Source of the DNA: Acrocarpospora phusangensis
GTDB taxonomy: Bacteria; Actinomycetota; Actinomycetes; Streptosporangiales; Streptosporangiaceae
Length of the DNA: 64,000 nt
Direction of reading: 5' to 3'
Assembly (NCBI RefSeq): GCF_016862995.1
Contig: NZ_BOOA01000042.1
Location: 1-64,000 of the forward strand
The translations under genes and the position numbers were made by a program. The notes under the pieces were generated by a model. That model was not told where the DNA came from, searched no databases, and saw nothing but the letters and a program-made list of their open reading frames with translations. The first letter of the stretch is position 1. Each line of letters begins with the position of its first letter. Shown one piece after another: positions 23,705 through 40,566 of the stretch.

Positions 23705-23847
23705 GGCTTTCCCGATCGCGCTGAGGAACAGGGTGCCGCGCCGGTCTCGTCCGTCTGGACGCCCAACGGGACGACGGCGATAATCGGGTGATCTCCGGTC
23801 AGGCGCTTCCCCCGCGAAGGGGCGTTTCCGTCAAGGGGGTGGCAGCG

Positions 23848-25749
23848 GTGACCATCGCCGCACTGCTGCGAAACCGCTCCATCGTCGCGAAGACCTTGAA
23901 ACAGCCCGAACTCGGATACACGCGGTATTTCGTCGTACGGCGTGCCCGCCGCCTGATCGAGCTGAACCCGGCCCTGGCCGACCCACGCCGCAAGAGCGAT
24001 CTCTCGGACGCGGGCACGGTCACCGCGGCCGGCCTGATCGCCGCCGAACTCCCCCGCGTACGGGCCGCCCGCGACGAGATCTGGCGGCGGGCCCGCACCG
24101 ACCCCGAACACCTCAGCCTCGCCATGGCGACCATCCGCGAACGCGTCTCCACCCGGCCGCCCGCCAACGACCCCCGGCTCATGCGGCGCAGGCTGGTGGC
24201 CACGATCGTGTACGCCGCCGCCGCCCAGGACGTCACCCTCGCCGACCCGGCGAACATCGAACGACTACACCGGCTGACCGACCGGCGGCTGCGGACCACC
24301 GAGCGCATGCTCTACGACGTCGGCCGCGCCGACCACCGCAGGTTCACCGCGCAGGCGCGCACGCAGCCGGGCGGGCCCTGGCCGGACGGCCTGGAGCGCA
24401 TCTTCGAGTACCCGCGCGTCCCGCAGTCGCTCTTCCTGGCCGCCTGCCACCCCGACGCGACCACCGGCCGGTGCGCCGCGCCCATGAACGAGTGGTACAT
24501 GCGCGGGTCAGAGCACCTCCACGGCCCCATCCGGACCAACATCGGCACCAGGGCCGCGTGGCGGGCGGCGGGCAGCTCGTACAACCTGTACTACACCGAC
24601 GGCCACCTGCCCGACGTGGAGACGGCCATCGAGGCGCTGTTCACGCCCTCGGCCGACTACCTCCAGCGCAACCTGATCTTCTGCGACCACGTCATCCACG
24701 CCCTGCACCTGGAGGCGCTCGTCTTCTCGCGCCGCAAACGCGGCGTCGCCCCGGGCTGGCTGGGCGCCGACCGCGCCGGCAAGCCCGCCGGGTGGATCCG
24801 GCTGTACGCGCCTTTCGTGGACGGGCGTTTCCTCGGCGGCGTGAAGGAACCGGCGTACTTCGAGTCCAGCCCGGTACGCGAGGCCGACCTCCAGCCCGGC
24901 GACCATGTGATCGTCTACAACCATCCCGCCTACCAGCATGCGACCGTGGCCGGGGTCTGGCGGCTGGAGAACGCCATCGTGGTGCAGTCGCACCCGTCGC
25001 TGCGCATGCAGGGGCACGGCTCCCGCGTCTACGACAAGCCCGGCATGTGGCGGACGATGATCGGTCTGTTCAACCGTGAGCTCACGCGCCGGCGGGCCGA
25101 CGTCGACGGGCTGGCGGTGGTCCGCGGCGACCGGCCCAACCGGGTCGAGGTCGACTCCGTGGCCCGGCTGCGGGTGGGGATGCGGGTCGAGATCGCCGAC
25201 CGCCGCACCGACGTCGTCCTCGCCGCCGACCGCCGGATCACCGCGATCGACCACGCCGGGCGGCTCGTCACGTACGACGGCGCGGACGTCGCGGCCACTC
25301 CCGGCCTGGTGCTGCGCCGGCCGCGCGCGACGGCCGGGGGCGTGACGAGCATCGACGTCGAAGGCTGGGTGACGCTGCGGCGCAGGACGCCGCCGGCCGC
25401 CTCCGCCTACGCGCCCCGGCACCGCCGCGCCGACTGGTACCTGACCTGGGCCGGGGACGAGGAGGAGAAGGCGATCCGGCTCGACCCCGCGCGGCGCGAC
25501 TTCGTCCGCGTGCACCAGCTCGTCGAGTACGAGGAGGATCCCACCGTGTCCGGCACCAGCACCCGCGGGTGGTTCCCCTTGTGGGTGCCGGCCCTGAACA
25601 AGAAGCGGCCCGTACGGAAGAACGGTCTCATCGCCGCCACCGAGCCGCTGATCGTGAAACCGGCGACCATCGCCGGCTGGACGTGGTTCTTCGACCCGAA
25701 GCCCGAGAACCGCGACCTGGTGCCCGTGCTGCGCCCCCGGGAGTTGTGA
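23848..25749 (+). CDS. Unknown protein with Tgl-type transglutaminase-like core
   Basis: A 633-residue protein, first gene of the giant-protein operon. Not a named family to my knowledge. Residues about 230-420 follow the layout of Bacillus Tgl (protein-glutamine gamma-glutamyltransferase): a cysteine at the start of a helix (Cys279 in LIFCDHVIHALHLEAL), then GDHVIVYNHP (Asp352), WRLENAIVV with Glu374, and QGHGS with His390. Tgl uses Cys116, Glu187 in WRGEN and His200 in AHG. After it come a similar MIGLFNRELTRRR helix and a beta-rich C-terminal part (430-633). GTG 23848 has AAGGGGG eight bases upstream; GTG 23839 is an alternative. Protein cross-linking or an NlpC-like amidase activity is inferred, not shown. 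Confidence 0.75.
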   Translation: MTIAALLRNRSIVAKTLKQPELGYTRYFVVRRARRLIELNPALADPRRKSDLSDAGTVTAAGLIAAELPRVRAARDEIWRRARTDPEHLSLAMATIRERVSTRPPANDPRLMRRRLVATIVYAAAAQDVTLADPANIERLHRLTDRRLRTTERMLYDVGRADHRRFTAQARTQPGGPWPDGLERIFEYPRVPQSLFLAACHPDATTGRCAAPMNEWYMRGSEHLHGPIRTNIGTRAAWRAAGSSYNLYYTDGHLPDVETAIEALFTPSADYLQRNLIFCDHVIHALHLEALVFSRRKRGVAPGWLGADRAGKPAGWIRLYAPFVDGRFLGGVKEPAYFESSPVREADLQPGDHVIVYNHPAYQHATVAGVWRLENAIVVQSHPSLRMQGHGSRVYDKPGMWRTMIGLFNRELTRRRADVDGLAVVRGDRPNRVEVDSVARLRVGMRVEIADRRTDVVLAADRRITAIDHAGRLVTYDGADVAATPGLVLRRPRATAGGVTSIDVEGWVTLRRRTPPAASAYAPRHRRADWYLTWAGDEEEKAIRLDPARRDFVRVHQLVEYEEDPTVSGTSTRGWFPLWVPALNKKRPVRKNGLIAATEPLIVKPATIAGWTWFFDPKPENRDLVPVLRPREL

Positions 25750-25750
25750 G

Positions 25751-28700
25751 GTGAGCGAGCCGACGGTCGCCCGGCTGGCCGGTGAGGTCGGGGCCGCCGT
25801 GGAGTCGCTGGCGCCGGTTCTCGCCGACCAGGAGGCGCTCGACCGGTTCGCCCGGGATGAGCTGGGGATCGACGCGCCGCTCGCCTTCGCCGGGCTCGGT
25901 CTCGATCCGGGCGTGATCGGGGCGGTGTCGTCCGCGCTGGACGCGCTCGCCGAGGCGCTGGACGAGGACGAGCCCGACCCGTCGCGGGTGCTGCTGAGCG
26001 CGGGCGCCCTCGTCGCCGTCGTGGCCGTCGCGATCGGGAACGTCGTCACCGCGGCGCGGCAGGCGGCCGAAGGCCAGGATCCCGGTTTCGCCGACGCGAC
26101 GCGGCTGGCCGAGACGCTGCCGCGGCGGCTGCTCGACTGGCTCGTCGTCGAACAGCTGGAGGAGCGGGTTCCGGCGGTCGTGGACGCGCTGCGGGTGCTC
26201 GGCGTGGTGGAGGTCGAGCCGGTTCCGCCCGATCCGCCGTCGTTCACCACCGAGCACATCCGCCGGGCGATCCATCCGCGGGTGCTGGTGACGCTGGTCA
26301 CCGATCCGGAGCGGTGGTGGCGGGAGGCGTACGGGTGGGGCGGGGAGGAGCCCCGGCTGGAGGTGCTGCTGCGGCGGCTCTTCGACCTCGGCGTGTCCCT
26401 GGGGCTGCCGGTCGAGCTGGCGGGGGAGGATCTGGGGCGGCTGGAGCGGTTCGCGTCGGCCGTGCCCGATTTGGACGAGGTCGATCCGCCGCTCGCGCTC
26501 CGGCTGCCGCTGGTGGATCTCCGGGACGGGGACGACGGGCTGGAGATCGGGGTCGCGCTGACGCACCTGCCCGCGGATCCGGGGGATCCCGCGGTCCAGG
26601 AGGGGCTCGCGCTGGTGCCGTACGCGGCGGGTAGCGCGGGGGTCGAGGTGCCCCTCGGGGAGTCGGGGGATTGGGTGGTGTCGTTCGCGGCCAGTCTGGA
26701 CGCCTCCGGCGGGATCGGGCTGGTGGCGCGGCCCGGGCGGGGCATCGAGGCGCTCGCCGATCTGGACGGGACCGGGGCGTCGGCCGCCGGGCGGATCCGG
26801 GTGGCGTTCGGGCGGGTGGAGAGCGCCGACGAGCTGGCCCTGCTGCGGTTCGGTGACGGGGCCGGGGTCTTCGTGACGGCGGTGGGGGTCGCCGCGTCCG
26901 CGGAGTTCGAGGCCGGGGCGCCGCCGGAGTTGCGGGTCGAGTTCGCGGTGAAGCAGGCCGTCCTGCGGGTGGCGGTGGGGGAGTCGGACGGGTTCCTGCG
27001 CAGTGCCGTACCGGATCTGCGGCTCGTGGTGGATGCCGGGTTCGGGTTCTCCAGCCGGCGTGGGGCGTACTTCGTCGGCGGGGCGGGGCTGGAGGTGACG
27101 GTTCCGCTCGGGCTCGAACTCGGGCCGGTCGCCGTCGAGAGGGTCACCGTCCGGGTCGCCGCGCGGACGGACGGGCTCGTCGCTGACGCGGGGGCGGCGG
27201 TGTCGCTGCGGCTCGGCCCGTTCACGGCGGTCGTGGACGGCATGGGCGTACAGGTGCGGATGCTGGAGGCGGCGGCCGGCAATCTCGGGCCCGTCGACGC
27301 GGAGGTGGGGTTCAGGCCGCCGAACGGCATCGGACTCGCCATCGAGACCCCGGCCGTGTCGGGTGGCGGATTCCTGGCGCTCGACCCCGAAGCCGGCCGG
27401 TACGCGGGCGTCTTCGAGCTGACCATCGTCGAGACGGTCTCGGTCAAGGTGATCGGGCTCGTCACCACCAAGCTGCCCGACGGCAGCCCCGGCTTCGCGC
27501 TCCTGCTCGTCATCACCGCCGACGGCTTCACCCCGGTGCAGCTCGGCATGGGGTTCGTGCTCACCGGGATCGGCGGCCTGATCGCGCTCAACCGCACCAT
27601 CGACGTGGAGGCGGTGCGGGCCGGGCTGAGCAGCGGCGTCCTGGACTCGGTGCTGTTCGCGAAGGACCCGGTGGCGAACGCGGGGCGGATCATCCAGACC
27701 CTGGACCGGATCTTCCCGCTCGCGCCGGATCGGCTGCTCATCGGCCCGCTGGCCGAGATCGGCTGGGGCAGCCCGCCGGTGGTCAAGATCAGGCTCGCGC
27801 TGCTGCTGGAGATCCCCCAGCCGGTGCGTGCCGTGCTGCTCGCCGCGCTGGCGCTGACGCTGCCCGATCCGGATCAGCCGGTCGTCGAACTGCACGTGGA
27901 CGCCATCGGGGTCCTCGATCTCGGCCGGGGCGAACTGGCCCTGGACGCGTCGCTGCATCACTCTCGGCTGTGGAAGTTCACGCTCACGGGCGACCTGGCG
28001 CTGCGGCTCAACTGGGGCAGCGACCCGACGTTCCTGATGTCCGTCGGCGGGTTCCATCCGCGCTTCACCCCGCCCGCCGGGCTGCGGGCCCTCGAGCGGC
28101 TGACGTTCAGCCTCTCCGGCGGCGACAACCCGCGGATCCGGTTCGAGACCTATCTGGCGATCACCTCGAACACCATCCAGCTGGGCGCGAAAGTCAGCGT
28201 ACGCGCCGAGGCGGGCGGGTTCGGCGTGGACGGCGGCGGGGCCTTCGACGCGCTCGTGCAGTGGGCGCCGTTCGGCCTCGACGTGCTCTTCGAAGCGTGG
28301 ATCAAGATCTTCACTCCGGCGGGCACGCTCTGTTCGGCCCGGCTCGCGCTGGAGGTCACGGGGCCGCAGCCGTGGCATGTGGTCGGGACCGTGCGGTTCT
28401 CGGTGCTGTGGTTCACCGTCGAGGCGGGCGTGGACTTCACAGTGGGCGATCCGCTGGAGCCGGTCGCGCAGGCGGCGGTCGACCTGCTGGACCTGCTGTG
28501 GAAGGAACTGAGCCGGCCCGCCAGCTGGTCGGCCGCGCTGCCCGCGCATGTCTCGCCCGGGGTCACGCTCGCCGCGTCGGGTACGCCCTCGGAGGAGGTC
28601 GTGCATCCCCTGGCCGAGGTGACCGTCCGGCAGAAGGTCGCGCCGCTCGGCACCACCGTCACCCGGGTCGGCGTGCATCGGCCGCTCGCCGGTCCGCGGA

Positions 28701-29056
28701 GCTACGACCTCGACCTCGACCTGGGGGGCGGCGCGGGGCTCACCGCCGTGCCGCTGCACGAGCAGTTCGCCCGGGCCCAGTTCACCGAGATGAGCGAGGA
28801 CGAGAAGCTCACCGCGCCGTCGTTCGCGCTGCTGCCGGCGGGCGTCGCGTTCCGGCCGGACGCCGCCCGCGCGCTGCCCGTGGATCGTGTCGCCGCGACC
28901 GACCTGGTCTTCGAGACCCTGGACCTCGTCGATCTCTCGGCGGAAATCTCCGAGCCGCCTCCGGGCGTCGGCGGGGCCGACCTCCTGCGGGCCGAGCGGG
29001 ACGCGCTCAGCGCTCTCTCCGGCGGGCTCGCGGGCCTGGCGGTGGTGCCGTCGTGA
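25751..29056 (+). CDS. Giant beta-rich protein, DUF6603-like
   Basis: An 1101-residue protein without signal peptide or membrane anchors. Residues 1-190 are helical; about 240-1000 alternate hydrophobic and polar residues in long strands, as in an extended beta structure. The region around residues 590-880 (FVLTGIGGLIALNRTIDVEA, LIGPLAEIGWG, GGFHPRFTPP, DNPRIRFETYLAITSNT) resembles what I recall as the DUF6603 domain, a family of unknown function found in large bacterial proteins. No catalytic motif is seen. GTG 25751 starts one base after the previous stop, and its own stop overlaps the next GTG (GTGA), so it is translated as part of the operon. Structural or scaffold role is inferred. Confidence 0.75.
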   Translation: MSEPTVARLAGEVGAAVESLAPVLADQEALDRFARDELGIDAPLAFAGLGLDPGVIGAVSSALDALAEALDEDEPDPSRVLLSAGALVAVVAVAIGNVVTAARQAAEGQDPGFADATRLAETLPRRLLDWLVVEQLEERVPAVVDALRVLGVVEVEPVPPDPPSFTTEHIRRAIHPRVLVTLVTDPERWWREAYGWGGEEPRLEVLLRRLFDLGVSLGLPVELAGEDLGRLERFASAVPDLDEVDPPLALRLPLVDLRDGDDGLEIGVALTHLPADPGDPAVQEGLALVPYAAGSAGVEVPLGESGDWVVSFAASLDASGGIGLVARPGRGIEALADLDGTGASAAGRIRVAFGRVESADELALLRFGDGAGVFVTAVGVAASAEFEAGAPPELRVEFAVKQAVLRVAVGESDGFLRSAVPDLRLVVDAGFGFSSRRGAYFVGGAGLEVTVPLGLELGPVAVERVTVRVAARTDGLVADAGAAVSLRLGPFTAVVDGMGVQVRMLEAAAGNLGPVDAEVGFRPPNGIGLAIETPAVSGGGFLALDPEAGRYAGVFELTIVETVSVKVIGLVTTKLPDGSPGFALLLVITADGFTPVQLGMGFVLTGIGGLIALNRTIDVEAVRAGLSSGVLDSVLFAKDPVANAGRIIQTLDRIFPLAPDRLLIGPLAEIGWGSPPVVKIRLALLLEIPQPVRAVLLAALALTLPDPDQPVVELHVDAIGVLDLGRGELALDASLHHSRLWKFTLTGDLALRLNWGSDPTFLMSVGGFHPRFTPPAGLRALERLTFSLSGGDNPRIRFETYLAITSNTIQLGAKVSVRAEAGGFGVDGGGAFDALVQWAPFGLDVLFEAWIKIFTPAGTLCSARLALEVTGPQPWHVVGTVRFSVLWFTVEAGVDFTVGDPLEPVAQAAVDLLDLLWKELSRPASWSAALPAHVSPGVTLAASGTPSEEVVHPLAEVTVRQKVAPLGTTVTRVGVHRPLAGPRSYDLDLDLGGGAGLTAVPLHEQFARAQFTEMSEDEKLTAPSFALLPAGVAFRPDAARALPVDRVAATDLVFETLDLVDLSAEISEPPPGVGGADLLRAERDALSALSGGLAGLAVVPS

Positions 29057-31329
29057 CCGGCGTCCGGCGCAGCTTCCTGCCCTGGTACCGGACGGGGTAC
29101 GCGGCGGCGCTGACCGGCCCGCCGCCCGCCGGGTCCGGGCGGGCCCCCGTACCGGCCGGGGTGCGGCTGCGGGACGACGGCGGGCGCGGGCGGGTGGCCG
29201 TGCCGATGGTGCTGGCCGGGCCCGGGGACGTCGTCGGCATCGACCCGCGCGAGGTCGGCCGCCTGGAGCCGTACGACGGGTGCCCGGACGCGGAGCCGTC
29301 CTACTTCCCGTACGTGGAGTTCGCCAGCCCCGACCTGCCGTGGCGGTTCACTCCCGACGGCGTACGGTCGGCTCCGCTGCCCGGTGGACAGGCGACCCGC
29401 GAATGGGTACGCCCCTGGCTCGCGCTCGTCGTCGTCCCCGCCGAGCGGGCCACCCTGACCGTGGCGGAGTCCGGGGGGACGCCGGTCCTGCGCTGCCCCG
29501 GCGCCGAACTGCCCGACCCCGGCGAGGTGTGGGCGTGGGCGCACGTCCAGGTGACCCACGACGTGGGCGACCCCGTGACGGCCGGCGCCGCGGTGGCCCG
29601 GCTGATCTGCCCGCGACGGCTGGCGGGCGGGGTCCGGTACCTCGCCTGCGTCGTGCCCGCGTACGCGGCCGGGCGGGACGCGGTCGTCCCCGGGCCCGAC
29701 GCCGACCCGCTCGCGCCCGCGTGGGGCGGCGACGGCGACGTCTCGCTGCCCGCCTACGTCCAGTGGACGTTCACGACCGGTCCCGGCGGCTCGTTCGAGT
29801 CGCTGGTACGGCGCCTGCGCCCCAGGCGGCTGCCGTCCACGTCCGGTTCGCGCCCACTCGCGGTCGGCGCGCCCGGCTGGGGAGCGCGGGCGGGGTCGGC
29901 GGACGCCGAAGCCGGCATGCAGGGCGCGTTGCGGCCGGTCGGCGTGAACGAACCGCCGATGGCCGACGACGTCCTCGCCGAGTCACTGCGTACGGCGGTG
30001 AGCCGGTCAGGGCCCGGGGTCGAGCTGCGGCCTCCCCTCTACGGCCAGGACTACCAGCACGGCCGCAGCGCCCTGGCCCCCAGCGGTCAGGGCTGGCTGG
30101 ACACGCTCAACACCGACCCCCGGCGGCGTGTCGCGGCCGGCCTGGCCGCCTGGGCGGTGGCCGTCAACCAGGAAGAACTCGTCGACACGGCCTGGTCCCA
30201 GCTAGCGACCTCCCGCCCCCGCCCGACCAGCCCTCCGCCCGACCGTATTACCGACTCTCCTACTGGCCATATCACGGGCAGTATGAGCAGCCGGATGTCC
30301 GGCCCGGCGGCACCCACCGCCGGGCCGGACCCGGCACTCGCCGCCGCGGTCGCGGGTTCGCTCGCCGACCGGCACGGAATCCCGGTCACCACGACACCAC
30401 CCGCGTCCGAAGGTTTCGCGCCGTACTATCCGGGACCGGCTTACGCGCTGCTGCGCGGCATCGCCCCCGAATGGATCCTCCCCGCGGTCGGCGACCTGCC
30501 CCTCGACACGGTCGCCCTCGCCGAGACCAACCAGGCATTCGTCGAAAGCTTCCTCGTCGGCCTCAACCACGCCCTGGCCAGGGAACTCCAGTGGCGGCGC
30601 TACCCGGTCCGTGCGGACGGCACCTTCTTCGACGTCTTCTGGGGCGGAGCGTCCGCGCATCGACTCCCGGCCCTCGCCGGCTGGAACGCCGACGACGCCC
30701 TCGGCTCACACAGCGGCCCCGGCGACCAGATCGTGCTGGTCCTGCGCGGCGCCCTGCTGCGCCGCTTCCCCACGGCCACCATCTACCTGTCCCGTACGGC
30801 CGCCAGCACCGAAGAACTCCTCCTGCCCGCCTTCTCCGGCCGGATCGGCCCGGACACCACCTTCCTCGGCTTCCCCCTCACCACCGCGGCCGCGACGGAG
30901 CCACCCCCAGCCGGAACCACCCCCTGGACCGTCATCATCCAGGAGTCCGTCAGCCACACCCGCTTCGGCCTCGACGACCCACCCACCGAACCAGTCGATC
31001 AGCCCATCCCGGCCCCCGCGGACCCACCCGCCGATCCGGTGAATCCACCCGTTCCGAACCCCGCGGACGACCAGGTGTCAGCGGAACCCCCGCAGTCCTG
31101 GCAGGACCTCGACTGGTCGCACCCCCACCTCGCCGACCGTACGCACGTCCCCATGGCCGGGCCGCTCGCCGGTGTCACCCTGCCCGCCGCCCGGGGTTCC
31201 GCGGCGACCGCGACATGGGCGCTCGACGCCGCGCAGACGGCGGTCGCGGTCCAGCAGCCGGCGTTCCGGGTGCGTATCCCGCTGGCGTTGTGGCTGACGC
31301 CGCCACCAGAACCGGAGCAGCCGTCGTGA
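29053..31329 (+). CDS. Uncharacterised 758-residue operon protein
   Basis: No named family recognised. It begins VTGVRRSFLPWYRTGYAAAL; an N-terminal half (to about 385) carries EPSYFPYVEFASPDLPWRF and WVRPWLALVVVP. A low-complexity linker rich in Pro, Thr and Ser follows (about residues 387-430) and is encoded by DNA of visibly lower GC than the surroundings. The C-terminal half has FLVGLNHALARELQWRRYP, GDQIVLVLRGALLRRFP and WTVIIQESVSHTRFGLD, blocks that I recall in large hypothetical proteins of unrelated bacteria. GTG 29053 overlaps the preceding TGA. A second Pro-rich linker (about 650-685) is also present. Cytoplasmic; probably a structural partner of its neighbours. Confidence 0.72.
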   Translation: MTGVRRSFLPWYRTGYAAALTGPPPAGSGRAPVPAGVRLRDDGGRGRVAVPMVLAGPGDVVGIDPREVGRLEPYDGCPDAEPSYFPYVEFASPDLPWRFTPDGVRSAPLPGGQATREWVRPWLALVVVPAERATLTVAESGGTPVLRCPGAELPDPGEVWAWAHVQVTHDVGDPVTAGAAVARLICPRRLAGGVRYLACVVPAYAAGRDAVVPGPDADPLAPAWGGDGDVSLPAYVQWTFTTGPGGSFESLVRRLRPRRLPSTSGSRPLAVGAPGWGARAGSADAEAGMQGALRPVGVNEPPMADDVLAESLRTAVSRSGPGVELRPPLYGQDYQHGRSALAPSGQGWLDTLNTDPRRRVAAGLAAWAVAVNQEELVDTAWSQLATSRPRPTSPPPDRITDSPTGHITGSMSSRMSGPAAPTAGPDPALAAAVAGSLADRHGIPVTTTPPASEGFAPYYPGPAYALLRGIAPEWILPAVGDLPLDTVALAETNQAFVESFLVGLNHALARELQWRRYPVRADGTFFDVFWGGASAHRLPALAGWNADDALGSHSGPGDQIVLVLRGALLRRFPTATIYLSRTAASTEELLLPAFSGRIGPDTTFLGFPLTTAAATEPPPAGTTPWTVIIQESVSHTRFGLDDPPTEPVDQPIPAPADPPADPVNPPVPNPADDQVSAEPPQSWQDLDWSHPHLADRTHVPMAGPLAGVTLPAARGSAATATWALDAAQTAVAVQQPAFRVRIPLALWLTPPPEPEQPS

Positions 31330-31345
31330 TCGCAGGGGAGCCGTG

Positions 31346-32413
31346 ATGTTCGAGCACGTGCGCGAAGTGCTGCTGCGGGCGGTCGGCCGTGCCAGGGCCG
31401 CGGTCGAGGCGGCGGTCGCCGCCAGGGACGCCGCGGTGGGGGTGGTCGAGGCCCGGCAGGGGGACCTGGCCCGGCGCCGGGCGCAGGTCTCCGTCGCCGA
31501 CGGCGAGGTCTCCGCCGCGGAACAGCGGAGACAGGCGGCCCAGGCGGTCCTCGACACGCGCGACGCCGAGGCGGCCGGGGCGCGTACGGCCCTCGCCGAG
31601 GCTCAGCGCAGGCTGGCCGAGCATCTTGCCGACGAGCCGGTCGACGGGCCCGTCATCGGCCGTCCTGATCCGATCAGGGTGGCGTGGAACCGGCAGCGGA
31701 CCAGGCTCGTCAAGGCCGTCAACGACGCCACGGCCGCCGTGGCGAGCGCGGACGCCGCCGTGTCCGCCGCGGCGGCGGACGTGCGGACCGCGGCGGCGGG
31801 TGTCGGGGCGGCGCTGGCCGTGGCGGAGCAGGCCCGGCAGCAGGAGAACGCCGCCCAGCTGGCGCTCATCGCCGCCCGCGCCGCCCTCCAGACGGCCGAG
31901 GCCGGGATCCCGTCGGCCAAGGCGGCGGTGGAAGCCGCCTCCGCCCGAGTCGACGCGCTCGACGACCGGGCCGCGAGGCTCGTCGCCGAACCTCTCGACC
32001 GGCCTGACCTGGAGCGTGCCGCGGACGCCGAACTGGCCGACCTGCTCGATACCCTCACGCGCAGGCACGCCACCCTGGCCCAGCGGGCCGAGGCCGTCGC
32101 CGCGAGGACGGAGTCGTACCGGTCGGTGGACGAAACCGTTGACGTGCTGGCGGCGCTCGGCGCGGACGCCCGGCCGTCCGTGCCCTCACTCGTCGTGGCG
32201 ATCGACGCTCTCGTACGCGCGAACGCCGCACAGCGCCCCCAGCCGGCCGCTGATCGCCGGGACGACCTCACAGGCCCGCACGCCGAGCTGACGGCCCGGC
32301 TCGCGGACATCCTGGCGGGCGTCGCCGCGGCACGGGCCGCACGCGACGCGGCCGTCACCGCGCGGGCCCGCGCCGTCCAGGCCCTCGCCACCCATCAGCG
32401 CAGGAGGATCTGA
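31346..32413 (+). CDS. Alanine-rich coiled-coil protein
   Basis: A 355-residue protein made almost entirely of heptad-like Ala/Glu/Arg/Val helices (about residues 5-110, 125-230 and 310-350), i.e. a long coiled coil with two breaks (one at PVDGPVIGRPDPIR). No enzymatic motif, signal or membrane segment. ATG 31346 is chosen because GGGGAG ends five bases before; GTG 31343 is too close. The stop overlaps the next ATG by one base (TGATG). In context it is likely a scaffold or rod linking the giant proteins; the neighbours on both sides of it also contain coiled coils. Confidence 0.75.
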   Translation: MFEHVREVLLRAVGRARAAVEAAVAARDAAVGVVEARQGDLARRRAQVSVADGEVSAAEQRRQAAQAVLDTRDAEAAGARTALAEAQRRLAEHLADEPVDGPVIGRPDPIRVAWNRQRTRLVKAVNDATAAVASADAAVSAAAADVRTAAAGVGAALAVAEQARQQENAAQLALIAARAALQTAEAGIPSAKAAVEAASARVDALDDRAARLVAEPLDRPDLERAADAELADLLDTLTRRHATLAQRAEAVAARTESYRSVDETVDVLAALGADARPSVPSLVVAIDALVRANAAQRPQPAADRRDDLTGPHAELTARLADILAGVAAARAARDAAVTARARAVQALATHQRRRI

Positions 32414-35400
32414 TGCGGCCACGCGACTACGACCCGGCCGAGGATCCCGGTGTCTACCTGGACGCGCTGGAAGAGTGGGAGGAGCGCCAGACCCAGCTGG
32501 TGGCCGCCGTGGACGCCGCCGACACGGCGGTGGTGGCGGCCGAACGGTCCCTCGCCACGCTGGAGGGCATCGCCGACCGGCTTGGCCGGCTGCTCCAACC
32601 GCTGGCCCGGGACCGGGACGCGCTCGCCGCGAACGACACCCGGCTCGCCGTATTGGCCGCCGAACTCGATGAGATCTCGGGGCTGCTCGCCGACTACACC
32701 GCCGCACGCGAACTGGCCACCACCCGGCTGCTCGGCGGCCCGGCGGCGGAGACGCCGCTCGTCCTGCTGCCCCTGCGGCTCCAGACCCGCTGGCTCGACG
32801 ACGGCCTGCATGTGCGGATTTATCCTGACGAACTGAGTGTCGACACCCACGACCCGACGCTCACCGCCGAGGAGTCCCGCTGGGCCGGGCACTACTGGCA
32901 GGTGCGTTCCGGCGCGGTCGAGGCGGACCCCGAGGAGACCTGGCGGCAACTCGTCCGCCGGTTCGGCCCAACCCGGGCCGCCTGGCTGGTCGACGTCGCC
33001 CGGCCGGACGGCGACGGCGGAACGCCGCGTCCCGGGCCGCTGCCACGTCCGGCCCTGGCCCGGCTGCTGCCGGACAGGTTCGCCGTGGTCGCCTTCGCCG
33101 GCGGAACACCCCTGGACATGGCACCGGCCGGAGCGCCCGCCCGCTATGTCACCTGGTCCTCGCAGGTCCCGCCCGACCTGGAACTCGCCGTCGACGACGC
33201 CCCGGGAGCGGCTTGGTGGAACGACCTCACGGCGGCCCACGCCAACGGCATGGCGGTACGGCTGAACCCGCCCCCCGGCCGCGGGCCGATCGACACGCTG
33301 GTCGCGGTCGGCCTCCGCGGCGTACGGCCGGACGCTCCCGCGGCGGACGTGCTCACGGCGCTGGTGGCCGCGCACGCGGTATCGGCCGGAGCGGAACTCC
33401 TCGCCGACGACACCCCCACGAACAACGCGGAGGCCCTGCGCTCCGCCCACAGCCCCCAAGCCCAGGAACGAGCCGCCCGCGCGGTCCGCGACGCCATCCT
33501 GGACTCACCCCTCGGGGAGCCGATCACGACTGACGTCCACGCGCTCCAGGAGGCGGCATCCGAGCCGTCCGGGGAAGAACGGGTCACGGCTGACGGCCGC
33601 GCGGTACTCGAGCCATCCGGGGAAGAACCGGTCATGCCTGACGGCCGCGCGCTAGGCGAACCGTCCGGGGAAGAACCGGTCATGCCTGACGGCCGCGCGC
33701 TAGGCGAACCGTCCGGGGAAGAACCGGTTACGCCTGACGGCCGCGCGCTAGGCGAACCGTCCGGGGGAGAACCGGTCACCGTCGATGACGCACCCGGCTC
33801 GCGTGGAGAAGGGCCGGCGCCCGGCGACGCCGTGCTCGGCTCGTCCGCAGGCGCGGCCAGGACCGCGGCCGCACGGCTCTCAGGGGCCCTCGGTGTTCCC
33901 GTTCGCGCGTTCGCCGGGCTCGCCGGGGCGGACGCCGGCCGAGACAGCGTGCCTGACGCGGTTCGCCTGCTCGTCGGGCTGGGGACCCAGGGCGCGCTGC
34001 GCCGCTCGCTCGGCGCGGACGACGCCTGGCCACTCGTCCGCCCGGACGGCCCTTTCCCCGCTTTCCGGGTAGGCCGGCAGCCCTACGGCGTGCTGCCGGT
34101 GACAGCTCCCGGACGCTGGGCCGCTGACGCCGGAGAGACCACGGCCGCGCTCGAACCGTGGCTGCGCGAGTGGGGCGCCGCGACCGGCCCGGCGATCGCG
34201 ACCGACCCGGGCGCGCCGCCCCGGCCCGTCGGCGGCGGCCCGGCCCGTACCGAGTCCGAGGACCTGGACGACTTGCTGATCGAGTCGGCCTCCTCGCTGC
34301 GCTGGCTCCCGGAAGCGGCGGACGGGCGCGGTTACGACGGCCTGGACGCGCTCGTCGGTCCCGCGGACGGCGTGGCCGCCCCGGCCGAGGCGCTCATCAC
34401 GCTGGCGGACACCCCTGCGGCCGACCTGCCCGCACTGCCCGAACAGGTCCGAGCCGGCTCGCTGCTCGCCCGGATCGCGGTCGCCGCCAAACGGGCCGCA
34501 CCGGCCGAAGCCGCCGTCGATACCGCGGTCGACACCGCACTGCGGACCCTCGCCAGCACCGGTCGCGAGCGACTGGCCCGCACGCTCTGCGAACTGCTCG
34601 ACGCGGCGTCGCACCGGTTCGACGCCTGGGTGACGGCTGCCGCCGCCGAACGGCTGACCGCCCAGCGGGCGGCGCATCCCGGCGAGACCGTCGTCGGCGC
34701 CGTCGGCTGGCTCACCGGCGTCGCGCCGCGCACCCAGCCGCGTTCGCTCGGCCACCTGCACGCCCCCTCCGTCGGGCACGCGGCGACCGCCGCCGTCCTG
34801 CGGTCGGCCTTCCTCGGCGAGCGCCGCAAGGCCTGGGCGGCTCGGGTCGAGGTCGCCGCCGCCGAGGTCGCCGCGTTGCGCGCCCACTTAGGCTCGCCGA
34901 TGCTCCCGCCCGCGGAGCGGCACAGCGTCCTCATCCTGCTCCGCGGCGCGGAGGCGTACCTGCGGGTGGCGGAGGACGGCGCGCGGCGGCTCGCGCCGCT
35001 CGGCCCGGAGTCGGAGCGGCGGCTGCCGCTGGCCGTGGACCTGTCGTCGCGGCGGCTGCGCGGCGCGTTGCGGGTGCTCGCGGCCGTACGCTCCGGGCAG
35101 CCGCTCGCCGCGGTCCTCGGGCACGGCTTCGAACGCGCCCTCGCCGACGCCGGCCTGCTCCACCACCTCGCGCCGTTCCGCAAACTCACCCGCTTCCGCA
35201 CCGGTACGGCACTGGAGGCGCTGGAACTCGAACGCGACCGGCGCAGGGCCGTACTGGCCGCCTCAAAGACTCGCCTCGCCGAGTTGCGGCAGACGGCCGA
35301 ACAGGCCCGCGCGCGGCTCGACGCCGCCGAACAGGCACTGCGAGCCGCGCAGGCCCGCCTGGACGCCGCCGACCTGCGGTACGCCCCCGCCGCCGACCTC

Positions 35401-35517
35401 GAACAGCGGATCGCCGCCGCGAACGCCACCATCCAGCAGCGCGCCCAGGAACTGGCCCAAGCCGAAGCCGCCCGGCCGGCCGGAAGCCGCACCCAGTTCC
35501 GCGTGACCCTGCCCTGA
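32413..35517 (+). CDS. Giant coiled-coil/linker protein with 16-residue tandem repeats
   Basis: A 1034-residue protein of unknown function. Order of parts: coiled coil (about 15-110); a globular region with VRIYPDELSVDTHDP near residue 137; a linker with five 16-residue repeats (384-463, EPSGEEPVMPDGRALG); a globular region with FRVGRQPYGVLPVTAP near 551; a helical stretch; and a C-terminal coiled coil (about 930-1025). The YPDE-SVDTH and GRQPYGVLPVT blocks recall other large uncharacterised bacterial proteins, but I know no assigned function. The two coiled coils at opposite ends would suit a bridging element. Start overlaps the previous stop. Confidence 0.75.
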   Translation: MRPRDYDPAEDPGVYLDALEEWEERQTQLVAAVDAADTAVVAAERSLATLEGIADRLGRLLQPLARDRDALAANDTRLAVLAAELDEISGLLADYTAARELATTRLLGGPAAETPLVLLPLRLQTRWLDDGLHVRIYPDELSVDTHDPTLTAEESRWAGHYWQVRSGAVEADPEETWRQLVRRFGPTRAAWLVDVARPDGDGGTPRPGPLPRPALARLLPDRFAVVAFAGGTPLDMAPAGAPARYVTWSSQVPPDLELAVDDAPGAAWWNDLTAAHANGMAVRLNPPPGRGPIDTLVAVGLRGVRPDAPAADVLTALVAAHAVSAGAELLADDTPTNNAEALRSAHSPQAQERAARAVRDAILDSPLGEPITTDVHALQEAASEPSGEERVTADGRAVLEPSGEEPVMPDGRALGEPSGEEPVMPDGRALGEPSGEEPVTPDGRALGEPSGGEPVTVDDAPGSRGEGPAPGDAVLGSSAGAARTAAARLSGALGVPVRAFAGLAGADAGRDSVPDAVRLLVGLGTQGALRRSLGADDAWPLVRPDGPFPAFRVGRQPYGVLPVTAPGRWAADAGETTAALEPWLREWGAATGPAIATDPGAPPRPVGGGPARTESEDLDDLLIESASSLRWLPEAADGRGYDGLDALVGPADGVAAPAEALITLADTPAADLPALPEQVRAGSLLARIAVAAKRAAPAEAAVDTAVDTALRTLASTGRERLARTLCELLDAASHRFDAWVTAAAAERLTAQRAAHPGETVVGAVGWLTGVAPRTQPRSLGHLHAPSVGHAATAAVLRSAFLGERRKAWAARVEVAAAEVAALRAHLGSPMLPPAERHSVLILLRGAEAYLRVAEDGARRLAPLGPESERRLPLAVDLSSRRLRGALRVLAAVRSGQPLAAVLGHGFERALADAGLLHHLAPFRKLTRFRTGTALEALELERDRRRAVLAASKTRLAELRQTAEQARARLDAAEQALRAAQARLDAADLRYAPAADLEQRIAAANATIQQRAQELAQAEAARPAGSRTQFRVTLP
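33562..33801 (+). repeat. 48-bp in-frame tandem repeat, five units
   Basis: Units begin at 33562, 33610, 33658, 33706 and 33754. Units 2-4 are almost identical at DNA level (unit 3 equals unit 2 apart from third-position changes at the ends; unit 4 differs by a T for C and an ACG for ATG); unit 1 and unit 5 have drifted. Each encodes EPSGEEPV(M/T)PDGRALG. The period is a multiple of three, so copy number can change without frameshift. It is a recent expansion in an acidic linker. Confidence 0.9.
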
Positions 35518-35560
35518 CCCTGATTCCGGACCCCGATTTCGACGTGACGGAGGCCAGCCC

Positions 35561-37963
35561 ATGGCGTTGCGGCAGGACGGACGCGGCTCGATAGTCGACC
35601 CCGCCGCCACCGAGGCGGTGGCGGCGTGGAGCAGGCGCGTCGCCGACGCGTCCGACGCGCTGGGCGCGGCACGGCGGGAGGCGATACGGCTGAACGGCCT
35701 GCTGAACGCCCTGGACGTGCTCGTGTGGCGACACGACCGCGAGGCCGCCCGCGCGGCCAGGGACGCCGCCCGGGCCGCCGCCGAGCAGGCCAGAGAGGCC
35801 TTCGACGCCGCCGACACGGCCGCCCGCCGCTACGAGGCCGTCGAGGTCGTGGACGCCGAGACGGCGCTCGACCAGGCGACGCTCGCCCTCAGCCGGGCAC
35901 TCGCCGAACTGCTCCGCGAAGCGTCCGTGTCGGCCTCCCTGACCGCCACCGTCGACGGCCTCGCGCTCCGCGACCGCTACCGTACGGCCACCGCGACCAC
36001 CCCGCCCACCTGGGACCACACCACGATTCCCTTCCCGGCCCGCCCCGAGGACGTCATCGACCCCGAACTGGCGCTGCCGGTCGTGGACGGCCCCGACGGC
36101 GAGTACGCGCGGCTGCTCACCGTCCTCGGCGGCCTCGACGAGCAGGTGGACGCCGTCGCCGACCTCCTCGTCGCCGAGAGCCTGCACCAGCTCGTCCAGG
36201 GCAACCCGGTCCGCGCGGGCGGCTCGCTCGCAGTCACCGGCCAGGGCCAGGTCCCGGACGAGTTCGACGTCGTGACAACCCCCAGACCGGGCTACGACGT
36301 GACACACCGGGTGATCGCGCTCACCGACGCGGCCGGCCCTCCGGCGTGGACCGCGCCCCGGCCCGGCCCCGCGGCCCGGCTGGACCCGGCGACCGCCCGC
36401 TGGGCCGCGGACCTGCTGCCCGACCCGGCCGATGTCGGAGTCCGGGTCCGGTTCGCGCACGCCGACGGCACCCAGGACGCGGTGGACCTGCGCCTGTCCT
36501 CGCTCGGGCTCGACCCGCTCGGCTGGATCCGTGTGGCCGCCGACCCCGCGGAACTGGCGTTCCGCATCGCCTGGACCGCGGCCGCCGCGGCCAGGTCGCT
36601 GATCGGGACCCAGCCGTCGGCGTCGCCGGGCACGGCCGGAACCACCGGCATCGCTGGGGCCGTAACCGGGCCGGTCGGTGACGGCACCCCCTCCCTGGTG
36701 CATCGTTCGGACGGTGTGGTGGGCGCTGCTTGGGACGTAACCGGGCCGGTCGGTGACGGCGCTCCCTCCCTGGTGCGTCGTTTGGACGGTGTGGTGGGCG
36801 CTGCTTGGGACGCGGCCGGGCCGGTCGGTGACGGCGCTCCCTCCCTGGTGCATCGTTCGGACGGTGTGGTGGGCGCTGCTTGGGACGCGATCGAGCCGGT
36901 CAGTGACGGCGCCACCCTGGCCGACCTGGTGGCGGCCGCACGTGCCGCCGGCCGACTGCTCGGATCAGCCCGAGCGCTGGACGCGACCGACCTCGCCCAT
37001 CCCGCCGCCTCCGACATGCCCCCGCCCGCCACGGCCGCCGTGGAGGCCGTCGCCGCGCGGGTACGCGACGTCGAGACGTGGATCGACAACCTGACGGACG
37101 CCCTCGACGCGGCAGCGGACACCGCCGACCCCGAACAACTCACCACGCTACTGCTCGAAGCCGCGACCGCCGGAGTCGCCGAAGCCGTCCCACCCCTCGA
37201 TCCCGGGTCGGCCACGATCCCGCAGGATGCCGCGCTGCTGGCGAGTCTGGCCCGCTCGGCCGCCGCCCGTCTGCGGCCCCGCCGGACCGGTACGCCGTTC
37301 GCGGTCGATCCCGGCGATCCCGAGCTGTCCCTGACGCGGGCCCGGCGTAGAGCGGAGGAGCTGGCCGGTTCGCGGGTTCCGATGCCGCTGGACGTGCCGG
37401 GTCCTCGGTGGGCGGAAGCCGTACGCGATCTCGGGCCGGTGGGGGAGCGGCTGGCGGGGAGCGAGCCCGCCGCGGTGCGGGACTGGTTGTTCCGGCATGC
37501 CCGGGTTCGGCCGCCGGTCGAGGCGGTGCTGGCGGCGTTCGACGTCGCCGAGGTGCTCGGTGCCGGCGCTGTGCTCCGACCTCGCGTGACCCAGCTGCCC
37601 GCGACGGACCCCGACGCCTGGGCCGGCGGCGTTCCCCGCCCGGCCGCGGGGACGGTCTCCCTCGTGGTCCTCGCCGCGTACGAGGGAGAGGTGCCGGAAT
37701 CCGTCAGCGGCCTGGTCCTGGACACCTGGACGCAGGCGGTTCCCGCGCTCGAACACGACACCGGCGTGGCGTTCCACTACGACCAGCCGGACGCCGGACC
37801 GCCGCAGGCCGTGCTCGTCGCGGTGCATCCCGATCCGTCCTCTGGAACCTGGGACCTGGACACGCTGCTGGAGGTCGTCACCTCGACTCTCGAACTGGCC
37901 AAGGACCGGGCGACCCCGGCCGAAAACGCTCGGCTGCGCGGCGTGGAGGTGCTCGATGGCTGA
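35561..37963 (+). CDS. Uncharacterised 800-residue protein with 25-residue tandem repeats
   Basis: No known family. A coiled coil occupies about residues 15-130 (ARAARDAARAAAEQAREAF region); a globular part follows to about 355; three 25-residue repeats (GPVGDG-PSLVHRSDGVVGAAWD type, residues 370-444) form a linker; the C-terminal part includes a helical region and the block VPRPAAGTVSLVVLAAYEG near 690. ATG 35561 follows GGAGG, after the only sizeable gap in the operon (43 bases). The stop region overlaps the next gene by eight bases. The mid-protein repeat position parallels that of the preceding gene product. Confidence 0.74.
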   Translation: MALRQDGRGSIVDPAATEAVAAWSRRVADASDALGAARREAIRLNGLLNALDVLVWRHDREAARAARDAARAAAEQAREAFDAADTAARRYEAVEVVDAETALDQATLALSRALAELLREASVSASLTATVDGLALRDRYRTATATTPPTWDHTTIPFPARPEDVIDPELALPVVDGPDGEYARLLTVLGGLDEQVDAVADLLVAESLHQLVQGNPVRAGGSLAVTGQGQVPDEFDVVTTPRPGYDVTHRVIALTDAAGPPAWTAPRPGPAARLDPATARWAADLLPDPADVGVRVRFAHADGTQDAVDLRLSSLGLDPLGWIRVAADPAELAFRIAWTAAAAARSLIGTQPSASPGTAGTTGIAGAVTGPVGDGTPSLVHRSDGVVGAAWDVTGPVGDGAPSLVRRLDGVVGAAWDAAGPVGDGAPSLVHRSDGVVGAAWDAIEPVSDGATLADLVAAARAAGRLLGSARALDATDLAHPAASDMPPPATAAVEAVAARVRDVETWIDNLTDALDAAADTADPEQLTTLLLEAATAGVAEAVPPLDPGSATIPQDAALLASLARSAAARLRPRRTGTPFAVDPGDPELSLTRARRRAEELAGSRVPMPLDVPGPRWAEAVRDLGPVGERLAGSEPAAVRDWLFRHARVRPPVEAVLAAFDVAEVLGAGAVLRPRVTQLPATDPDAWAGGVPRPAAGTVSLVVLAAYEGEVPESVSGLVLDTWTQAVPALEHDTGVAFHYDQPDAGPPQAVLVAVHPDPSSGTWDLDTLLEVVTSTLELAKDRATPAENARLRGVEVLDG
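36668..36892 (+). repeat. 75-bp in-frame tandem repeat, three units plus remnant
   Basis: Units start at 36668, 36743 and 36818, each 75 bases; a fourth, diverged start follows at 36893 (EPVSDGA). The copies differ at only a few positions (for example HRSDG versus RRLDG). The encoded repeat is Gly/Asp/Val-rich. As with the 48-bp array upstream, the near-identity suggests recent slippage or unequal recombination. Confidence 0.9.
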
Positions 37964-39614
37964 GGTGCTGCGCCCGGCGTCCACGGCGACGTCCGCGATC
38001 GACCGCAGGGACGCGGTCGCCGCTCCCGTGCGCGACCCGATGTGGCTGCTCGCCCGGCAGTGGCAGACCGGCGGCTTCACCGCCGACGACGCCGGCTCCC
38101 CGGTCGCGGTCGCGCTCGCCGCCGCGACCGCGCCCCTGACCGGCCCGGACGGCCTGGCCCCCGTCCCGCTGGAAGCCTGGATCGAGGCCGAGCCACCGCC
38201 GGCGCTGGACGATCTCGACGCCCGGCGCCTGGCCGCCCTGGCCACAGAACTGGTCCGCCGCCTGCGCGACGAGGGCGTGGTGGCGGCCCGCGAAGCGCTG
38301 ACGACCGCCTTCCCGTTCACCCCGGACACGCCGGGGGAGCGCATCCGCCCGTTCGCCGCCCGCGTCCCCGACCCGCGCACCCTACGGGCGGCCCTGCTGC
38401 CGGAACTCGGCGAACACGGAGACGGCCAGGGCTCGCTGCCCCCGATCCAAGGGCTGGCGGCGGAGTTGACCCCCGGCGTCGAGAAGGCGTGCCGCTCCTG
38501 GCTCGCCTGGATCGCCGGCCAGGTCGCACCCGTCACGGGACCGGCGGCGACCCAGCCCGCGGCCTGGGACCCCCAACGCCTGGAGTACCGGTTCGGCCTT
38601 TCCGCGCGACTGCCCGCCGCCTCCGTCGACCTGCGAGCCGACGAGTACGACGGCACCGGCGTCGAATGGCACACCTTCGACCGGGCGGCCTTCGACCCGG
38701 CCACGGGCACCGGCACGACACCACTCCCCACGCTGGTACGGCCCACCCCGGTCACCTATCCCGGAATGCCTCGCGCCCGCTTCTGGGAGTTCGAGGACGG
38801 CGCCGTGAACCTCGACACCCTCACCGCCACCGACCCCGCCCACGCCGTCCTGGTCACCTTCGCCCACCGGTACGCCAACGACTGGTTCGTCATCCCGCTC
38901 ACGGTGCCGCCCGGTGCCTGCACGATCGAGACCCTCGTGGTCACCGACAACTTCGGCGGCGCGACCCCGGTTTCGGCGGTCGCCGCGGTGGACCGGGGGA
39001 GCGGCCCGTTCCGGCTGTGGGAACTCTCCAGCCAGGACGACGACCCCGAACCGGGCGCGGGCCTGCGCATGTTCGTCCCGCCGACCCCGAAACGCCTGCA
39101 CGGCGAGCCGATCGAGGACGTCCTGCTCCTCCGCGACGAACTGGCCAACCTCGCCTGGCTGGTCGAACGCACCACCCGCGACCGCGACGGCGAACCGGTC
39201 GACCGCTACCGCCGCCACCTGACGCTGCGCCCGCCGCAGGACCCGTCCTTCCATCCGGCGCAGGCGGCCACCGGCGCGCCCGCGTACCGGCTGGGCACGC
39301 CCGTCCCGGACTACTGGTATCCGCTCGTCGCCACGACCGGCGCCGACGGCCGCCCGCTCCTCGCCCTGGCCGGGCTCCCCGACGGCGCGGCCGGCGTCTC
39401 CGACGCGGGCGTCCAGGGACACCTCGTCCCCCACGACTCCGACACCGTCATCGCCGACGAGGAGGTGCCCCGCGAGGGCGTCCGCCTCATTCTCGAAGAC
39501 CGGCTGACCACCGGCGGCGCCGACGTGATCCTCTGGCGGGCCCGCGCCAAACTCGCCGGCTCAGGCGAAGGCTCCTCCGGCCTCCGCTTCGACGTCCTCC
39601 TGACCGGGCCATGA
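37956..39614 (+). CDS. Uncharacterised 552-residue operon-terminal protein
   Basis: Last gene of the operon. It opens MAEVLRPASTATSAIDRRDA and contains PVRDPMWLLARQWQTGGF followed by DDAGSPVAV near residues 28-52, then a helical segment, the block WHTFDRAAFDP near 230 and a beta-rich half with RFWEFEDGAVNLDTL, RYANDWFVIPL and ANLAWLVERT. I recall the RDPxWLLARQWQxGxF...DAGSPV signature in large hypothetical proteins of distant bacteria that sit beside homologues of the other genes here, but no function is known to me. Start overlaps the preceding gene by eight bases (ATGGCTGA). A strong hairpin follows its stop by seven bases. Confidence 0.76.
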   Translation: MAEVLRPASTATSAIDRRDAVAAPVRDPMWLLARQWQTGGFTADDAGSPVAVALAAATAPLTGPDGLAPVPLEAWIEAEPPPALDDLDARRLAALATELVRRLRDEGVVAAREALTTAFPFTPDTPGERIRPFAARVPDPRTLRAALLPELGEHGDGQGSLPPIQGLAAELTPGVEKACRSWLAWIAGQVAPVTGPAATQPAAWDPQRLEYRFGLSARLPAASVDLRADEYDGTGVEWHTFDRAAFDPATGTGTTPLPTLVRPTPVTYPGMPRARFWEFEDGAVNLDTLTATDPAHAVLVTFAHRYANDWFVIPLTVPPGACTIETLVVTDNFGGATPVSAVAAVDRGSGPFRLWELSSQDDDPEPGAGLRMFVPPTPKRLHGEPIEDVLLLRDELANLAWLVERTTRDRDGEPVDRYRRHLTLRPPQDPSFHPAQAATGAPAYRLGTPVPDYWYPLVATTGADGRPLLALAGLPDGAAGVSDAGVQGHLVPHDSDTVIADEEVPREGVRLILEDRLTTGGADVILWRARAKLAGSGEGSSGLRFDVLLTGP

Positions 39615-39666: not shown

Positions 39667-40566
39667 TCAGCCGGGCGGGAAGAGGCCGTTCTTGGCGACC
39701 GGCAGGGCGAGCTGGGGGGCGCCGGCGAGGACGGCCTGCTCGGCCGGGAGGCCGGCGAGCACGGGGTTGATGTGCCGCAGGGTCAGGGTGACCGTGGGCA
39801 GGGCCGGAGTGACGATGTCGAACTTCTCCAGGTCGATCCACCGGACCAGGTTGAACGTCGCGGCGGGGATGTTGTCGCCGGCCTTCTGCACCGGCACGCA
39901 CAGCTGGCGGGCGTAGAGGACCTGCGCGGGATGCGTGGGGATCGCCTGGGTCAGGACCGGGTTCAGCTGGCGCAGGGCCACCTGCTGGTTCAGCGGTTGG
40001 TTGGGGGTGATGCCGTAGCACTTCAGGTCGATGTGCCGGACGACCGACAGCACCTCGGCCGGCGGGACCAGGTTGTTCTTGATGACCGGCACGCACAGCT
40101 GCTGCGGGGTGTTCATGGAGATCTGCGTACGCGGCAGGGTCTGGAACAGCGGGTTCAGGTGGCTGAGCACGAGCCCGGTGTTCACCGTCGTGCCGGAGAT
40201 CCGGTAGCAGGCCAGGTCGATGAACCTGATGAAGTCCAGCGCCGGCGACGGCGGGAGCTGGTTGTTCTTGGCGACCGGGACGCACAGCTGCTCACGCGGG
40301 CCGAGAGTGACGGTCTCGATCGGCAGGTTGGCGAGCACCGGGTTGATGTGCCGCAGCGTGAGCGTGGTGGCCGGCGGCTGGTACGGGGTGGTCCTGAAGC
40401 ATTCCAGGTCGAGGAACGCGGTCAGATCCTTCGGCGTCGGCAGCGCGAGGGCGCTCGCGGGCGGCACGCAGAGGAACGCCACCGCGAGCACCGCGACGGC
40501 GGAGGATGCGAGGCGCCGGATCACTGATTTTCTACGCCCATGAATTCCGGTTACGGCTCGGTTCAT
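39667..40566 (-). CDS. Secreted protein of four ~63-residue repeats
   Basis: A 299-residue exported protein. The signal peptide spans about residues 15-40 (ASSAVAVLAVAFLCVPPASA). The mature part is four tandem repeats of about 63 residues, each with (I/L)DL-CY/F, then L-L-NP-L, then QLCVPVxKN(N) and a PP pair. Repeats 1-3 keep a pair of cysteines (CF/CY and LCVPV) likely to form disulphides; repeat 4 has lost both (EKF, LALPV). I do not recognise a functional family. ATG 40566 is preceded by TTGGAG. The preceding 390 bases are relatively AT-rich and probably hold its promoter. Cell-surface or extracellular structural role is inferred. Confidence 0.82.
   Translation of the reverse strand: MNRAVTGIHGRRKSVIRRLASSAVAVLAVAFLCVPPASALALPTPKDLTAFLDLECFRTTPYQPPATTLTLRHINPVLANLPIETVTLGPREQLCVPVAKNNQLPPSPALDFIRFIDLACYRISGTTVNTGLVLSHLNPLFQTLPRTQISMNTPQQLCVPVIKNNLVPPAEVLSVVRHIDLKCYGITPNQPLNQQVALRQLNPVLTQAIPTHPAQVLYARQLCVPVQKAGDNIPAATFNLVRWIDLEKFDIVTPALPTVTLTLRHINPVLAGLPAEQAVLAGAPQLALPVAKNGLFPPG

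Follow-up and report, generated by a model that had tools for sequence, protein, structure and literature searches.

Among the described systems closest to the locus reported here are the extracellular contractile injection systems (eCIS) with their associated toxins, the likeness being a variable enzymatic payload. One of these toxins, EAT14, has a transglutaminase-like domain (PMC11297309), and eCIS are spread sporadically across bacteria and archaea. A further likeness, confined to a sister locus, is to the BTH_I2691 family of type VI secretion system (T6SS) effectors, to which Tke5, described as a pore-forming toxin (PMC12909789), belongs. Here we describe a seven-gene operon (g1 to g7) in a 64,000-nucleotide stretch of the genome of the actinomycete Acrocarpospora phusangensis (contig NZ_BOOA01000042.1, positions 1 to 64,000; hereafter the window). 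In this operon and its relatives, a replaceable, often enzyme- or toxin-like gene heads a fixed, co-inherited core. Relative loci, genomes and contigs carry our own numbers (L, G and C).

The seven genes lie on the forward strand (+) between 23848, or an alternative in-frame GTG at 23788, and 39614, and encode 5,234 residues in total. The first, g1 (23848-25749, +; GTG start; 633 amino acids), sits in what would be the payload slot and encodes a putative papain/NlpC-like (Tgl-like) enzyme. It is followed by g2 (25751-29056, +; 1101 amino acids), a core protein of the DUF6603 family; g3 (29053-31329, +; 758 amino acids), a core protein with a mixed beta-rich fold and a disordered loop at residues 391-452; and g4 (31343-32413, +; 356 amino acids), a coiled-coil protein. 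Next come the N- and C-terminal halves of a giant core protein, g5 (32413-35517, +; 1034 amino acids; motif VGRQPYGVLP) and g6 (35561-37963, +; 800 amino acids; an extra helical-looking N-terminal region), and finally the core protein g7 (37956-39614, +; 552 amino acids; motif DP(L/M)WLLARQWQ). The junctions from g1 to g7 measure +1, -4, +13, -1, +43 and -8 bases. These coordinates and junctions bear out the first-pass annotation of this DNA, which had seen one unit of seven co-directional genes with overlaps or gaps of at most 43 bases and about 5,200 residues. The operon goes beyond chance because homologues of g2, g3, g5, g6 and g7 keep the same order in other genomes.

A scan with one g5 motif over 84,980 species genomes returned 387 relatives, and the best 80, ranked by similarity to the window, were searched with profiles of the core genes that had been built before the scan. 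Among these 80 loci, g2 was found in 69, g3 in 76, g6 in 75 and g7 in 70, and all 30 absences (11, 4, 5 and 10, respectively) were on the side of a contig end, where the remaining sequence was too short to hold the gene (by limits set at 3 to 7 kb). All five genes were present in 60 loci, 59 of which had them in the order g2-g3-g5-g6-g7 on one strand; the exception was Leptolyngbya (L102), with g2 last. A g2 downstream of g7 was also seen in L047 (Cloacimonadota) and L061 (Methanosarcinales). As a correction to the first-pass annotation, most relatives encode g5 and g6 in a single open frame, of which each makes up one half (70 such frames within the 80 loci, and 2 further frames that hold g5, g6 and g7). 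The split form occurred in three of the 80 loci (L038-L040), which group with the window at a value of 100 in the Shimodaira-Hasegawa-like approximate likelihood-ratio test (SH-aLRT), and also at Rhizobium and Halobellus plasmid loci. The annotation had proposed to look for co-occurrence of all seven families. Five of them (g2, g3, g5, g6 and g7) do co-occur, but g1 matched in none of the 80 relative loci and g4 in two (L039 and L040), with a 218-residue open reading frame (ORF) at the g4 position in L038. Together, g2, g3, g5+g6 and g7 form a syntenic block of unstudied families, and because five of the seven families co-occur, a multi-protein assembly of the core is likely.

The gene at the head of this block varies. 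We collected 49 first-gene or neighbouring proteins, consisting of 43 of the 45 upstream genes called at the relative loci with a simple in-house caller (L100 and L117 were dropped), g1 itself and five plasmid neighbours, among which a Nocardia S8 peptidase sits downstream of g7 and a Streptomyces europaeiscabiei gene is divergent. PhoD-like phosphatases were the commonest family (20 of 49), followed by PLDc_2 phospholipase D (three), peptidase M64 (two) and DUF2515 (two). Singletons included an Rv2525c-like glycoside hydrolase, Het-C, trypsin-like, subtilase, beta-lactamase-like and hemopexin proteins, and a TonB receptor (L088) that lies 926 bases off and is probably outside the operon. The PhoD state, scored in 20 of 41 rows, changed at least seven times on the g7 tree. 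In the clade that the window forms with three relatives (SH-aLRT 100), the slot holds g1, a BTH_I2691-like gene (L038) and, twice, a phospholipase D-like gene (L039 and L040), so that three types of first gene with no relation to one another head four related cores. The L038 gene matches the C-terminal part of the BTH_I2691 family (E 2.2e-8, 33 bits), below the family cut-off of 150 and without the N-terminal part; the L038 ORF in the 49-protein set was in the wrong frame, and the correct ORF, searched separately, had no Pfam match in one scan. As a control, 29 of the 39 genes just downstream of g7 were scanned, and no family occurred in more than three, the 25 of 71 families seen being mostly metabolic enzymes and transporters.

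The g7 tree (68 sequences, alignment A2) spans 13 phylum-level groups, archaea included, and its phylum labels change 26 times, compared with a possible minimum of 12 and an average of 32.5 for shuffled labels. On this tree, the copies of Desertimonas (Actinomycetota) and Sphingomonas are neighbours on short branches (SH-aLRT 99). Because the tree mixes 13 phylum-level groups and holds this supported cross-phylum pair, the core block seems to move as a unit. Among plasmids, translated searches (tblastn) detected g7 in 13 records and DUF6603 in 15, with 12 common to both, and profiles located the block on Streptomyces, Nocardia, Rhizobium, Gemmatirosa, Paraburkholderia and haloarchaeal plasmids and in several further genomes. 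In one record labelled as an unverified bacteriophage (L036, MT835531.1), which is perhaps a bacterial contig, g3, the giant gene and g7 are present together with the end of g2.

Within the window's phylum, a draw of 296 genomes, the window's own included, yielded DUF6603 in nine, g7 in seven and both in six. DUF6603 without g7 was found in G204, G246 and G261, with much lower scores on the window-type g2 profile, and g7 without DUF6603 in G269, on a contig of 3,170 bases. There is a second kind of DUF6603 locus (L120, L121 and L123), whose fetched stretches lack g5-g7, with a weak g3-like match in L123 (G261); L118 and L124, on contigs C27 and C38 of the window's own genome, are also of this kind. 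In two cases such loci are preceded by an enzyme, one of the exonuclease/phosphatase family and the other metallo-beta-lactamase-like (a weak match); on contig C38, the enzyme ahead of the DUF6603 fragment is of the exonuclease/phosphatase family. The window's own genome has DUF6603 genes at the ends of contigs C5 and C27, a below-cut-off match at the end of C38, and a second giant and g7 copy that is cut by the end of contig C64 (L005:9130-15214, -), with a SigE-family sigma factor gene just downstream of it.

To better define the core proteins, we compared them with described families and folds. A Pfam scan placed g2 residues 454-1017 in DUF6603 (PF20248; E 1.6e-118, 396.9 bits against a cut-off of 27), a family without described function, confirming the earlier DUF6603-like label as a clear membership. 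The other six genes matched no Pfam family at E 0.1, and NCBIfam gave nothing for g1 and g3-g7 beyond weak coiled-coil matches of g4 and g5; those of g4 are to SMC-type coiled-coil models (best E 0.0013, far below their cut-offs). An AlphaFold2 model of g3 reached a mean predicted local distance difference test score (pLDDT) of 86.8 and a predicted template modelling score (pTM) of 0.83. Residues 1-120 of g6 lie outside most relatives as aligned, the relatives having been trimmed to the domain. As the first-pass annotation had it, neither hydropathy nor inspection points to a signal peptide in the window proteins, but its exclusion of membrane helices is less clear-cut, given a mean Kyte-Doolittle value of 2.37 over residues 80-98 of g2. 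Among 28 core homologues, which were picked for large inserts or archaeal origin, we found inserted FG-GAP_3 (seven), LTD (three), HHH_3 (two), PA14, F5/8C and GLEYA domains (one each), and three haloarchaeal homologues of g7 bear a lamin-tail domain by both annotation and Pfam LTD. The cytoplasmic location assigned earlier is doubtful because FG-GAP, lamin-tail, PA14 and F5/8C domains occur in some core homologues.

The reading that we favour, with a probability of roughly 0.45, is a released or surface-exposed multi-protein particle with a fixed core and a swappable first-gene enzyme or toxin. It starts from four observations, namely the operon, the co-occurrence and order of the core, the variable first gene and the inserts in some relatives; from these we infer the assembly, its extracellular location, delivery and the chemistry of g1. 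The fixed core would comprise the DUF6603 protein g2, g3, the giant g5+g6 and g7, with the coiled-coil protein g4 added in the window's clade. This core would be located outside the producing cell or be released and would carry the product of the first gene, here g1, as its payload, and the carbohydrate- or surface-binding modules in the cores of some relatives could set what the particle binds. A more specific version is conceivable, if rather doubtful: the locus might encode a hitherto undescribed class of protein-delivery machine that bacteria and archaea share and that has no kinship with phage tails, Tc toxins or known secretion systems. In that case, a particle of DUF6603, g3, giant and g7 proteins would bring a single interchangeable cargo, either an enzyme or a pore-forming toxin, to the surface or the inside of other cells, and the inserted binding domains would help choose the target.

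Unlike eCIS, g1-g7 show no sheath, tube or baseplate likeness by Pfam and PHROGs. The eCIS sheath family PF04984 had no match in the window's own genome (G000) and was present in four of the nine genomes searched: G193, where the sheath lies more than 3 Mb from the cassette; G468 and G469, the genomes of L039 and L040; and G225, a genome in which DUF6603 and g7 are both absent. No TcA, TcB or Rhs-type domain of Tc toxins was found in g1-g7, in which Pfam finds DUF6603 alone; fold comparison covered g3. The likeness to T6SS effectors belongs to L038 and not to the window.

Several points weigh against a payload-carrying particle. Searches of Pfam, NCBIfam, PHROGs and PDB sequences (the last without g6) revealed no likeness between the core proteins and the parts of known injection or secretion systems, and neither a known export route nor an immunity gene was identified. 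In 35 of the 80 loci there is no called same-strand upstream gene within 1.5 kb, and some of the 49 proteins are probably outside the operon. A PhoD protein, the type found most often in the first-gene slot, can also be a secreted phosphatase of the ordinary kind, and among the 25 of 71 downstream families seen there are abhydrolase-type enzymes (up to three) and one patatin-like phospholipase. The insert rate is inflated by the picking of the 28 proteins for size or archaeal origin. Lastly, a Streptomyces anthocyanicus plasmid has g7 with no other core gene within the 27 kb fetched. This orphan g7 (L034:17047-18852) lies about 4 kb from IS5 transposases and is possibly a decayed cassette.

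Some of the same observations would fit a scaffold on the cell surface, on which a single extracellular hydrolase would be presented to free nutrients or remodel the wall, with a cellulosome-like role and no delivery into other cells. First genes of the PhoD phosphatase, glycoside hydrolase-like, peptidoglycan-binding and peptidase types accord with such a scaffold, as do the sugar- and surface-binding inserts in core homologues, but the first genes that resemble BTH_I2691 and Het-C have the look of toxins and not of nutritional enzymes and the window proteins lack an apparent signal peptide, and we regard this explanation as unlikely. Less probable still is a complex for conflict or defence that works within the host cell, where its first-gene enzyme would be activated. 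Its sporadic distribution in the phylum, plasmid carriage and swapped first gene are consistent with this, and the paralogous giant in the window's own genome weakly matches CATASP (CATRA-associated small protein; E 0.0033, 17.7 bits, cut-off 29); yet Pfam finds no sensor or nucleoside triphosphatase in the operon, and the adhesin-type inserts point outward.

We found no match for g1 in Pfam, NCBIfam or PDB, and 197 genomes of its class held one relative besides g1 itself, the C-terminal half of which matches g1 residues 240-416. The two proteins conserve a Cys and the motifs 'GDHV..YN.P.Y', 'LENA.VV' and 'QGHG', which seem to resemble the layout of Tgl and of papain/NlpC-P60 enzymes; with Bacillus Tgl (PF20085), the putative common features are a Cys and a later 'LENA...GHG' pattern. 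To judge by these motifs, g1 is probably a cysteine enzyme of papain/NlpC-P60 type. The PF20085 profile matched neither full-length g1 at E 0.1 nor its residues 202-440 at E 5, found nothing in the window's whole genome at E 0.001 (a B. subtilis control was detected), and matched in 0 of 119 genomes of the phylum, so that the earlier naming of g1 as a Tgl-like enzyme has motifs and no profile match behind it. The relative also has a 'LQRTAGN' stretch near its N-terminus, which may correspond to one in effectors of actinobacterial eCIS-type contractile injection systems; this is a lead and no more because the sheath gene in the relative's genome is over 1 Mb away. A contig of the IMG/VR viral collection (L128) contains one weak relative of a g1 fragment (30% identity, E 4e-5).

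The g2-g7 proteins contain Gln and 21 Lys in 4,601 residues (0.46%), compared with 191 in 9,288 (2.1%) for 21 other window ORFs. The first-pass model of a particle that coats spores or cells and is cross-linked by a transglutaminase of its own, in favour of which stand the motif resemblance of g1 to Bacillus Tgl and the co-occurrence of giant proteins with coiled coils, is very unlikely: g1 has no TGL match and is not conserved with the core, its slot is taken by unrelated enzymes, g2-g7 are poor in Lys, and many of the host lineages (Acidobacteriota, Pseudomonadota, Nitrospirota, haloarchaea and others) are not known to form Bacillus-type spores.

The operon is bordered on one side by a divergent gamma-glutamyltransferase gene (22142-23692, -) and on the other by a convergent gene (39667-40566, -). 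The Halalkalicoccus cassette (L019) likewise has a gamma-glutamyltransferase gene nearby, probably by chance. Two repeat inserts are particular to the window, a low-complexity one in g5 (residues 385-467; 33565-33813, +; less than 25% occupied in 71 relatives) and one in g6 (residues 343-414; 36587-36802, +; less than 25% occupied in 63 relatives). An alternative-frame ORF at 28887-31346 was rejected as g3: its third-position G+C is 0.62 versus 0.89 for 29053-31329, the frame with homologues, and a scan against Pfam gave no match. Further downstream, the window encodes a 1471-residue GH95 glycosidase with concanavalin-like, Ig-like and FIMAH domains (43731-48146, +).

In the literature searched, which took in few subscription papers and no preprints, no paper named DUF6603 or PF20248, and none on such an operon was found by title and the start of the abstract. 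New members can be recognised by the signature R[VI]GxQPYG[VIL]L, DPLWLLARQWQ and DUF6603. Five core genes (4,245 residues here) that are kept together over 13 phylum-level groups point to a large blank in current knowledge of the protein machines of prokaryotes. Should the core indeed carry payloads, it would represent a new delivery route, with a modular payload slot, in Gram-positive and Gram-negative bacteria and archaea.

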